Source of the DNA: Blastocatellia bacterium
Lineage (GTDB): Bacteria > Acidobacteriota > Blastocatellia > Pyrinomonadales > Pyrinomonadaceae
Direction: 5' to 3'
NCBI GenBank assembly: GCA_016789265.1
Contig: JAEUQK010000020.1
Location: forward strand, 248,001 to 312,000
DNA length: 64,000 nucleotides
The notes under the pieces are model-generated. The model saw only the letters and a list, made by a program, of their open reading frames with translations, did not search any database and had not been told where the DNA came from. Position 1 is the stretch's first letter, and every line of letters starts with the position of its first letter. This document shows positions 10,984-13,643 of the stretch, in pieces. A program made the position numbers and the translations under genes.

Positions 10984-11013
10984 TTGACAACCACTGATCC
11001 TGATTGCTATTTT
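10984..11013 (+). promoter_or_regulatory. Sigma-70-type promoter for the riboswitch transcript
   Basis: A perfect -35 TTGACA (10984-10989) is followed after 18 bases by TATTTT (11008-11013). Transcription would start about 11019-11020, exactly at the first base of the riboswitch P1 helix. The -35 box begins one base after the acyl-CoA dehydrogenase stop codon, so the downstream RNA need not depend on that gene. Confidence 0.65.
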
Positions 11014-11018
11014 CTATT

Positions 11019-11120
11019 CTGCATCAGGAGAGGTTCGAAAGAACCCAGCAACCGGCGAGAAACGGTGCTTTGAGGTGAAAGCCTCGATGTGCAGAAGCGG
11101 AAGCTTCTAGAAATCTCAAC
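11019..11120 (+). promoter_or_regulatory. SAM-I/IV-family-like riboswitch aptamer
   Basis: The core follows the SAM-I/SAM-IV plan: CAGGAGAGG (11025-11033), CAGCAACC (11046-11053) and CGGTGCT (11063-11069). Helices that can be drawn are P1 CTGCA 11019-11023 with TGCAG 11090-11094; P2 GGTT 11032-11035 with AACC 11042-11045; P3 ACCG 11051-11054 with CGGT 11063-11066; P4 GAGG 11072-11075 with CCTC 11082-11085; and a 3' hairpin AGAAGC/GCTTCT (11093-11108). GAGA in the P3 loop (11057-11060) can pair with TCTC at 11114-11117, the kind of pseudoknot used by SAM-IV and SAM-I/IV variants. P2 is very short and lacks the SAM-I kink-turn and pseudoknot. Ligand SAM is inferred from the core only. Confidence 0.72.
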
Positions 11121-11126
11121 AGTTCG

Positions 11127-11173
11127 CAAATAGGCCTATTACTCTTGATGTGAGTGATGGGCCTATTTGTTTC
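11127..11173 (+). terminator. Rho-independent attenuator after the riboswitch
   Basis: CAAATAGGCC (11127-11136) pairs perfectly with GGCCTATTTG (11160-11169); ACTC 11141-11144 and GAGT 11152-11155 extend the helix, and a short T-run follows. It lies between the aptamer and the next gene, so ligand binding probably controls read-through. Confidence 0.75.
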
Positions 11174-11214
11174 CTGGTGTATTAACCAAATGAAAAATAG
11201 GAGAGTACATCAGA

Positions 11215-11643
11215 ATGAGAAAATTTCCATATATAGTATACAAGGTGAATGCCACGACCTTTCTTACTAAATCTATCCATTTCCGACCCTTGGAGGCCGA
11301 GCCCGAGAAGACAGGCATAACTCTTTGCTGCGCATTTAGTCCTTTCGATGAAAACGGGCGTCTACGCGATGACGCGAGAACCATCGTTCGCCGGATCGCC
11401 CTTTCAGAGAGGGTAACATCCGGGATGAATGTTTGCGTCGTGTTTGGCCCCGAGGAGTGTGAGTATTTCGAACCGGACGGAACTCCGGTACTGTCGTCCA
11501 GACCACCTAAGTTGGGTCGAAATCTGCTCGAACTCGGCCCGGCTATTTCGAATGACGAACCATACGAAAAGCCGAGCGACGGCGAAACTGCTCTGAACTT
11601 AACCACCGCACTATCCAAAGAAAAGAAGGAACTAGTCCACTAA
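11215..11643 (+). CDS. Unknown protein under riboswitch control
   Basis: The 142-residue protein has no signal peptide, membrane segment or family motif that I recognise. The start ATG at 11215 has AGGAG at 11200-11204 (spacing about 10). The first ~25 residues are rich in AT-type codons and aromatic/basic residues, and the C-terminal 40 residues are acidic and probably flexible. It is the only gene downstream of the riboswitch and attenuator before a terminator, so the switch presumably serves it alone. An antisense frame of similar length exists on the other strand, but the RBS and attenuator favour this one. Function unknown; a link to methionine or SAM is only implied by the leader. Confidence 0.55.
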   Translation: MRKFPYIVYKVNATTFLTKSIHFRPLEAEPEKTGITLCCAFSPFDENGRLRDDARTIVRRIALSERVTSGMNVCVVFGPEECEYFEPDGTPVLSSRPPKLGRNLLELGPAISNDEPYEKPSDGETALNLTTALSKEKKELVH

Positions 11644-11752: not shown

Positions 11753-13393
11753 TTATCGATCCGTCGCTATCAGGCGGCTATTTTTTCGTCCGTAAAGGAA
11801 ATAGAACACAACACCGATCACCATCCAGATCAATAGTCTCGCCCATGTGTCCCAAGGCAGGCCGTACATAAGGTAAAGGCTTGTCAGTGCGGCAAAGATG
11901 GGTACGATCGGCGAAAACGGCACCTTGAACGGTCTCGGCAGATCAGGCTTTGTCTTACGCAGAACGATAATGCCGATCGAAACGATCACGAACGCGAACA
12001 ACGTCCCGATGCTTACCAGCTGTCCGAGCATCGAGATCGGCACGAGTGCGGCCATCACGGCGACGATCGCACCGGTGATCATTGTCGTGACGTGCGGTGT
12101 GCGAAAACGCGGATGGATCTTGGCGGCCCATTCCGGCAACAAACCGTCCTTTGCCATCGCGTAAAAAATGCGGGGCTGTCCCATGATCTGGACGACCATC
12201 GTCGAGCTTAGCCCCAGCACCGCTCCAAATTTGATGATCATCGAGAACGACCTGAGTATGAACGCAATGGTCGACCCTTCGACCGCCATTCCGGAGGCCG
12301 CGGTGATCGCGGCCGCAATAGGTGCTGCTTCTTCCTTTAACTGAGTGTAAGGAACCAGACCGACCATGATCCCCGCGACCAAAATGTACAAGATCGTGCA
12401 AATCACAAGCGAGCCTATGATCGCCCTCGGCATGTCTTTTTGCGGGTTCTTTGCCTCTTGAGCGGCGGTCGAAACAGCGTCAAATCCGATATAAGCGAAA
12501 AAGATCACGGCCGCACCGGTCAGGATTCCACTGTAACCGTACTCGCCAAACACTCCAGTGTTGGGAGGGATGAACTGCAAACAGTCACCGACACCGGGCT
12601 CGCATCCGATGCCGAGGTAATGTGTGTTCACGTAGCCAACGCCTGCGATGATAAACAGCAGCACGACGCCGATCTTGACCATCACTACGACGGAGTTGAA
12701 GTTCGCAGATTCGCGTATTCCTCTCACTAGCAATGCGGTAACGGCTATCGCGATCAGGAACGCCGGAAGATTGAAAAACGCCGTCTCGACCGGCGCTTGT
12801 ATGCCAGCCAACGACATTCCTTTGGCAAGCTCGTCGGTCAACACGTTGTACCCTGCCGGAGGATTCAATATCGTCTCACCCACGCGCAGGTTCGAAAGGT
12901 GTGCGGCCGCGTCAGCCGATAGGCCCACGAACTTCGTGCCCGGTGCGGCACTCAGCGCGACCGGGAAATGTATCCAGAAGTCCGCAAGAAGGCTGATGAC
13001 GTTTCCCGACCATCCCGCGGCGACGGTCGCAGCACCAAACGCATACTCAAGGATCAGATCCCATCCGATTATCCATGCGATGAATTCGCCAAGTGTCGCG
13101 TAACTATACGTATAGGCCGAGCCCGAGATCGGTACTGACGATGCGAATTCGGAATAGCATAAGGCTGCGAGTGCGCTGACCAAGCCGGCAATTATCATCG
13201 AAATTACGACCGCGGGGCCCGAATGCCTTCCCGCAGCCTGGCCCGTCAGAACAAAAATACCCGTGCCGATGATCGCTCCAACGCCGAGCAAGGTAAGGGC
13301 CGAAACGCCCAAGGTTCTCTTCAATGTTCCTTCGCCCCTGTCCTCGGATTCTGCAAGGATCTTTTCGAGCGGCTTTGTCCTGAATAATTCCAT
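11753..13393 (-). CDS. APC-family amino acid permease
   Basis: Using the ATG at 13393 gives 546 residues starting MELFRTKPLEKIL; the open frame extends upstream to 13528, but that part is basic and unlike the family, and TAGGT sits 8-12 bases before 13393. At least twelve membrane helices are present. The first carries GVGAIIGTGIFVLTG, the substrate-binding glycine motif of the cationic amino acid transporter branch. It most likely imports an amino acid with protons at the inner membrane. A long extracellular loop with cysteines (GIGCEPGVGDCLQ) lies near residue 260. The substrate cannot be read from sequence. It stands alone between a terminator and a divergently arranged regulator. Confidence 0.9.
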   Translation of the reverse strand: MELFRTKPLEKILAESEDRGEGTLKRTLGVSALTLLGVGAIIGTGIFVLTGQAAGRHSGPAVVISMIIAGLVSALAALCYSEFASSVPISGSAYTYSYATLGEFIAWIIGWDLILEYAFGAATVAAGWSGNVISLLADFWIHFPVALSAAPGTKFVGLSADAAAHLSNLRVGETILNPPAGYNVLTDELAKGMSLAGIQAPVETAFFNLPAFLIAIAVTALLVRGIRESANFNSVVVMVKIGVVLLFIIAGVGYVNTHYLGIGCEPGVGDCLQFIPPNTGVFGEYGYSGILTGAAVIFFAYIGFDAVSTAAQEAKNPQKDMPRAIIGSLVICTILYILVAGIMVGLVPYTQLKEEAAPIAAAITAASGMAVEGSTIAFILRSFSMIIKFGAVLGLSSTMVVQIMGQPRIFYAMAKDGLLPEWAAKIHPRFRTPHVTTMITGAIVAVMAALVPISMLGQLVSIGTLFAFVIVSIGIIVLRKTKPDLPRPFKVPFSPIVPIFAALTSLYLMYGLPWDTWARLLIWMVIGVVFYFLYGRKNSRLIATDR

Positions 13394-13643
13394 AGATTTG
13401 TTACCTAATACATGTTCAAGATCTTGGTTGCGGGTCCGTTTTCTCCGGGCGATCGATACTGAGCGTTCACGCGAAACCGTAACTCTGAATCGAAAGCCCA
13501 TACGAAACTCTTCCCGCGTCACAATCAAGAATGGACTCGAGCCTCTCTGTAAGTCGTTAGAACCTATGAAATCTTCTGAAATGCGGATGAGACCGTCATG
13601 AAAGTCCTCTTTTTTAGCGATCTTGCGTCTTTAAGGCGGGGTA

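Follow-up and report, generated by a model that had tools for sequence, protein, structure and literature searches.

How does the leader in front of a small, uncharacterised gene of a Blastocatellia bacterium sense its ligand, and how could binding be passed on to the gene? The leader lies in a 64,000-nt stretch (assembly GCA_016789265.1, contig JAEUQK010000020.1, positions 248,001-312,000 of the forward strand), which we call the window. Positions 10984-11213 of the window hold a promoter, a SAM-I/IV aptamer, an intrinsic terminator and a hairpin at the ribosome-binding site (RBS), followed by a 142-codon gene at 11215-11643. From sequence comparison and folding predictions we propose, with a probability of about 0.7, that the leader is a SAM-dependent OFF switch that works by a two-step strand exchange of the P1 5′ strand.

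The promoter and the aptamer

The sensing part of the leader comprises the following elements.

10984-11013, plus strand: σ70-like promoter TTGACA-N18-TATTTT (extended TG), boxes at 10984-10989 and 11008-11013; start predicted near 11020-11021, where P1 begins
11021-11118, plus strand: SAM-I/IV aptamer, from an RF01725 match, covariation and a pseudoknot permutation test
11021-11025/11086-11090, plus strand: aptamer helix P1
11032-11036/11041-11045, plus strand: P2 with a GAAA loop, plus G11030-C11046 across a one-base bulge
11047-11054/11063-11069, plus strand: aptamer helix P3
11072-11075/11082-11085, plus strand: aptamer helix P4
11093-11098/11103-11108, plus strand: aptamer helix P5
11057-11060/11114-11117, plus strand: pseudoknot PK-2 between GAGA of the P3 loop and TCTC of the tail, from the permutation test

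A sequence-only reading of this DNA had proposed a promoter with N18 spacing whose start coincides with P1. Both boxes are indeed there, and the −10 box ends 7-8 bases upstream of the first P1 base (11021). One promoter-like site was seen where 0.9 is expected by chance per 1-kb region, which is no excess; in the relatives L006, L008 and L013, TTGACA lies at the same place and distance. An acyl-CoA dehydrogenase gene is found upstream of the riboswitch in the window and also in L006.

The element is almost certainly a genuine riboswitch of the SAM-I/IV class. RF01725 matches it over the full length (1-99) with 40.8 bits, which falls 0.3 bit short of the curated cut-off of 41.1, and an E value of 4.7e-5; this is the sole match in the 3.9-Mb genome. 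When 94 distinct sequences were aligned to R1, a model built from 11 relatives, 97.2% of the cells were paired compared with 75.8% after shuffling, and 19 of the 26 pairs had changed on both sides compared with 14.4 in the shuffles, in an alignment that was fitted to the structure and is hence biased towards it. Sliding the partners of the aptamer helices in this alignment abolishes the covariation signal. P4 covaries among the relatives, all five P5 pairs vary on both sides, and the complementarity of PK-2 across 93 sequences (1372) exceeds the maximum reached by permutation (1229). The two central P1 pairs, A-U and U-A, which we take to act at the SAM sulfonium, are invariant in the 94 sequences. 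The sequence-only reading had named a missing model match together with missing covariation as a refuting outcome, and neither was seen.

The riboswitch type, the core, P5 (11093-11108) and the P3-loop/tail pseudoknot thus bear out the sequence-only reading, while its account of P2 has to be corrected. It had described four pairs with a six-base loop and had suggested a divergent subclass from the missing kink-turn; the helix has five pairs plus G11030-C11046 across the bulge and a GAAA loop, which agrees with the class consensus, and we reject the divergent subclass. The short P2 is a class trait and not a divergence, because the published definition of SAM-I/IV has an undivided P2 and no PK-1, together with P4, P5 and PK-2 (PMC6890682, PMC2864571), and these variants have no internal loop in P2 (PMC2864571). 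The window element has the undivided P2 without internal loop or kink-turn, P4, P5 and PK-2, and by inspection no PK-1 partner for the P2 GAAA loop was seen. It differs from SAM-I (RF00162), which has a kink-turn P2 and a pseudoknot between the P2 loop and J3-4, in that its five-pair P2 carries no internal loop, and from SAM-IV (RF00634), which has P2a/P2b and PK-1 and lacks P4, in that it has P4 and an undivided P2. By analogy with the class, the ligand is probably SAM. Matches of microRNA and lncRNA models to the terminator hairpin and the P5 region are far below the cut-offs of those models and were dismissed as chance.

RF01725 finds the riboswitch in 9 of the 119 genomes of the order, and four relatives in the order exceed its cut-off. 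R1 matches in 10/119 genomes of the order, 11/162 of the class and 22/396 sampled from the phylum. The spread in the order is patchy, with the riboswitch and the small gene together in a few genomes of the same genus only. A DNA pattern scan of public genomes yielded 113 stretches, mostly from Acidobacteriota and Actinobacteria. Among these relatives, a Phycisphaerae locus (L056, 1864-2267, reverse strand) has tandem SAM-I/IV-like aptamers of 30.7 and 23.1 bits before an AAA+ gene. In four loci of one other Acidobacteriota family, f28 (L031, L032, L033, L046), P1 differs (GUAUG, GCAUG), there is no terminator, and the start codon directly follows the aptamer, which suggests another type of control.

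Two complements of the P1 5′ strand

Downstream of the aptamer, the elements are as follows.

11021-11030, plus strand: switching strand, the P1 5′ strand with J1/2, GCAUCAGGAG, complementary to both anti-P1 elements
11126-11173, plus strand: intrinsic terminator with a 19-pair stem, loop UUGAUGU (11145-11151) and a weak U tract, from folding energy
11142-11151, plus strand: anti-1, CUCUUGAUGU, at the terminator apex; 10/10 pairs with 11021-11030, two of them G-U
11171-11180, plus strand: anti-2, UUCCUGGUGU; 10/10 pairs with 11021-11030, G-U included; overlaps the 5′ arm of the RBS hairpin
11174-11213, plus strand: RBS hairpin with arms 11174-11183 and 11204-11213, Shine-Dalgarno AGGAG (11199-11203) in the loop and the start codon next to it
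11215-11643, plus strand: controlled gene behind the SAM-I/IV riboswitch, 142 aa, a relative of the "FPYL" proteins

The hairpin at 11126-11170 has 19 pairs and a folding energy of −30.3 kcal/mol (z −9.5). The earlier description of a leader with its own promoter and an attenuator is supported in both of its parts. Its "perfect terminator" is right for the stem but not for the U tract, which is weak: TTTCC directly follows the stem, and a generic terminator scan does not list the site. Most relatives have equivalent terminator hairpins with better U tracts. An ATG in the terminator loop was considered as the start of a leader peptide and rejected, as in the window ATGTGA stops immediately, and L006 and L008 have no such ATG.

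The sequence-only reading did not include the RBS hairpin and the two complements of the P1 5′ strand. The hairpin has an energy of −13.1 kcal/mol in the window (z −3.8); in the relatives its arms differ by lineage, and z is below −2 in 22 of 29. When the relatives are placed side by side, their terminator loops carry (C)CUGAUG(C/U), and a second copy, CUCCUGRUGC, lies just before the ribosome-binding site. Both motifs are complementary to the P1 5′ strand with J1/2.

The order in which these pairings would arise was predicted along the growing window RNA with a partition function that includes no pseudoknots, ligand or RNA polymerase. In this ligand-free model, pairing with anti-1 has a probability of 0.95-1.00 for 3′ ends from 11149 to 11158, the terminator is predicted from 11164 on, and pairing with anti-2 reaches 1.00 for 3′ ends from 11179 to 11206, after which the RBS hairpin competes. 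Most relatives are predicted to follow this order too, and among the 38 loci listed, the predicted pairing of the P1 5′ strand with the downstream part clearly exceeds that of shuffles. Once complete, the terminator always beats anti-1 in the window at equilibrium; antitermination by anti-1 would therefore have to be kinetic.

We propose the following mechanism. The transcript would begin at P1. With SAM bound, P1 (11021-11025/11086-11090) would be locked, so that the terminator at 11126-11173 forms and transcription stops; in transcripts that read through, the hairpin at 11174-11213 would close over the Shine-Dalgarno sequence, and the gene would be OFF. Without SAM, the free GCAUCAGGAG would pair first with anti-1 before synthesis of the terminator's 3′ arm is complete, delaying terminator nucleation, and the P1 5′ strand would then shift to anti-2 and keep the RBS hairpin open, such that the gene is both transcribed and translated (ON). 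A single sensor may thus control transcription as well as translation of the gene. The proposal builds on the identity and covariation of the aptamer, the complementarity and conservation of the anti-elements and the predicted order of pairing, from which we infer pairing in the cell and the joint action of the two steps. The OFF direction is suggested by the class and by its metK targets.

Conservation of the anti-P1 elements and alternative readings

The alternative that survives best, though it is unlikely, is an ordinary SAM-I/IV OFF switch that works through P1 stability and the terminator; GAUG in the loop and CCUGRUGC at the RBS would be functionless leftovers or loop preferences. It is in keeping with the terminator winning at equilibrium with or without anti-1, and with common ancestry of the leaders within one phylum. 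Conservation of the anti-P1 elements could be largely inherited, because the P1 5′ strand is near-invariant and was fixed in the pattern by which many loci were collected. Against this reading, terminator stems are free to differ, yet the loop persists in different Acidobacteriota classes and in single genomes from other phyla. Of the 39 riboswitch terminators, 25 contain TGATG in their apical part; the control terminators, taken from the flanks of the loci and thus from the same DNA, are nearly all without it (11/889 have it). In an enlarged set, 27 of the 51 riboswitch terminators reach a complementarity score of at least 18 to their own P1, compared with 6/889 controls.

A switch also needs an antiterminator in the ligand-free state. 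When the roughly 80-100 ten-base windows of each aptamer were compared as an internal control, the P1-5′/J1-2 window ranked first as a partner for the terminator apex in 31 of 51 loci, and for the 40 bases that follow the terminator in 26 of 51. Measured against dinucleotide shuffles of the DNA downstream, 51 of 85 loci had p < 0.05; they include most of the Acidobacteriota loci and single ones from Verrucomicrobiota, Planctomycetota, Chloroflexota, Armatimonadota and Bacteroidota. By the same test, the complementarity was not detected in Acidimicrobiia and other Actinobacteria despite the same P1, with the exception of L106, whose match lies ~100 bases downstream; Holophagae-like loci, in which P1 is different, gave no signal.

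Compensatory changes speak against functionless leftovers as well. Pairing is kept by change in L164 (GCAUUACGAG with CUCGUGAUGC), L044 (ACAUCCGG with CCGGGUGU), L040 (CAUCAAGAG with CUCUUGAUG), L166 (CGAGAG with CUCUCG) and L025 (UCAUCAG with CUGAUGA), and the P1/J1-2 variants of L018 and L038 have matching changes downstream. Own P1s outscore shuffled P1s with p = 2e-4 in a permutation of P1 variants that ignores relatedness. There are exceptions, which favour the ordinary switch: the J1/2 variants CACG (L017, L026, L023, L109) and CUGG (L168) have no matching change, nor has L041, one pair is lost in L112 and L150, a good anti-1 is missing despite a terminator in L041, L043, L063 and L170, and anti-1 is reduced to the five bases GATGC in L073, L094 and L101.

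It is less probable still that the switch is mainly translational, with anti-2 opposing the RBS hairpin, in the manner of E. coli thiC, and the window terminator being minor or constitutive. The weak U tract of the window and the thiC precedent favour this, as do eight loci that have anti-2 and no terminator (L097, L131, L140, L145, L147, L150, L151, L155); in three of these (L140, L145, L151), the Shine-Dalgarno sequence itself is the pairing partner of the CUCCU in anti-2. Most Acidobacteriota relatives, on the other hand, have strong terminators with good U tracts and anti-1, and several of them (L034, L035, L036, L038) show no clear anti-2. A stand-alone small RNA acting in trans, with the downstream ORF left uncontrolled, would account for the own promoter and terminator and for an ORF of no known family, but is very improbable, as five genomes of the family keep the ORF downstream of the riboswitch, its product is related to proteins encoded after other SAM-I/IV riboswitches, and the RBS hairpin beside its start codon is conserved.

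The two-step strand exchange can be compared with known systems. In SAM-I riboswitches the antiterminator sets the P1 3′ strand against the 5′ arm of the terminator, whereas in the window the P1 5′ strand is predicted to pair with the terminator loop. The transcriptional SAM-I (S-box) riboswitches otherwise share the SAM-binding core, a terminator that forms with SAM bound and strand exchange at P1 (PMC3656099, PMC10853860), while the kink-turn and PK-1, which are class features of SAM-I, are missing in the window. Published SAM-I/IV riboswitches (RF01725; Weinberg et al. 2010, PMC2864571; PMC6890682) resemble the window element in P2 to P5, PK-2, the lack of PK-1 and the core sequences, and in relatives they precede metK, metX and metH; the window differs in its score just under the cut-off, its two anti-P1 copies and its uncharacterised target gene.

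The E. coli thiC and tbpA TPP riboswitches (PMC5234074, PMC11487190) are similar in that the P1 5′ strand pairs with an anti-P1 segment that otherwise lies in the RBS stem, and in that both translation and mRNA level are controlled, as is predicted here. In thiC, C7-G16, by its position the 5′ side of P1, is protected once a downstream segment in competition with the RBS stem becomes exposed (PMC5234074). The window shows the same arrangement, with a conserved anti-2 that reaches into the RBS hairpin, and the translational half of the model would have a direct precedent in the thiC anti-P1 stem (PMC5234074). These riboswitches have another aptamer and ligand, and Rho stops transcription there, while the intrinsic terminator of the window has its own separate anti-P1 copy in the loop. 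The Bc1 c-di-GMP riboswitch (PMC11218506) also combines termination and translation in one riboswitch; it has two terminators and an incoherent output, and the abstract describes no anti-P1 element pair. The two anti-P1 elements are probably what is new in this expression platform, a suggestion with good comparative support; in the literature searched, which included few subscription papers, neither a terminator loop with an anti-P1 copy nor two successive copies were described, which in itself is weak evidence.

The controlled gene and the FPYL family

The 142-aa protein has no Pfam match. Among the 119 genomes of the order, four others encode homologues, every one of them downstream of a SAM-I/IV aptamer, although the aptamer of L013 is missed by the Rfam model. 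A profile of these five proteins (A3) aligns with a profile of the ~240-aa FPYL proteins (A4) over 52 columns with a probability of 95.3 and an E value of 2e-8. FPYL proteins have a C-terminal Cys-rich domain and are encoded behind SAM-I/IV riboswitches in other Acidobacteriota and a Chloroflexi genome; the family has no match in NCBIfam or PHROGs. A search with A3 in 297 genomes of the phylum matched only two, the window genome and G374, where the gene lies behind riboswitch L035. The predicted structure of the window protein was unusable (mean pLDDT 39), and that of the 240-aa relative from L035 (pLDDT 62) gave a best Foldseek hit of only E 0.29.

In G004 (L008) and in L118, the gene lies between the riboswitch and metK. 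The metK gene of the window genome is on another contig, and no second SAM riboswitch was detected in the 4.1-kb locus around it. Riboswitch control and this neighbourhood suggest a role of the FPYL family in SAM homeostasis.

Several further observations concern the neighbourhood of this and other SAM-I/IV riboswitches. In L112, MetK begins 83 bases after the aptamer and its N-terminus resembles the FPYL start of L118, as though a deletion had removed the FPYL gene and joined its start to metK. A MoxR-like AAA+ ATPase (~430-490 aa) is the first gene behind the riboswitch in L003/L025, L031, L050, L056 and L099, loci that span at least four phyla (Acidobacteriota, a Deltaproteobacteria MAG, Phycisphaerae and Armatimonadota). 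Other proteins without a known methionine link are encoded directly behind the riboswitch, namely RadC/JAB (L028, L047), a TY-Chap3 domain (L017, L026) and HHLWNNHGTWW-type proteins (L044, L070, L150). In the window, an amino-acid permease gene (11753-13528, minus strand) is convergent with the controlled gene, and a terminator-like site (11761-11778, plus strand) lies between the two.

Expression platforms are far harder than aptamers to analyse by covariation (PMC13273304). A platform of the window type leaves a clear signature, because the near-invariant P1 5′ strand has two conserved complements, and the switch can be predicted base by base. If the proposed strand exchange is true, a terminator that matches the aptamer with its loop and not its stem would be a compact coupling of sensing to termination, and repeating this complement at the ribosome-binding site would let one sensor make two checks. 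We see even odds that tandem anti-P1 elements provide coherent transcription-then-translation control in Acidobacteriota and some other phyla, and that FPYL proteins are an unrecognised component of SAM homeostasis. With a place between riboswitch and metK in two loci, the protein family would be a new candidate for that role.
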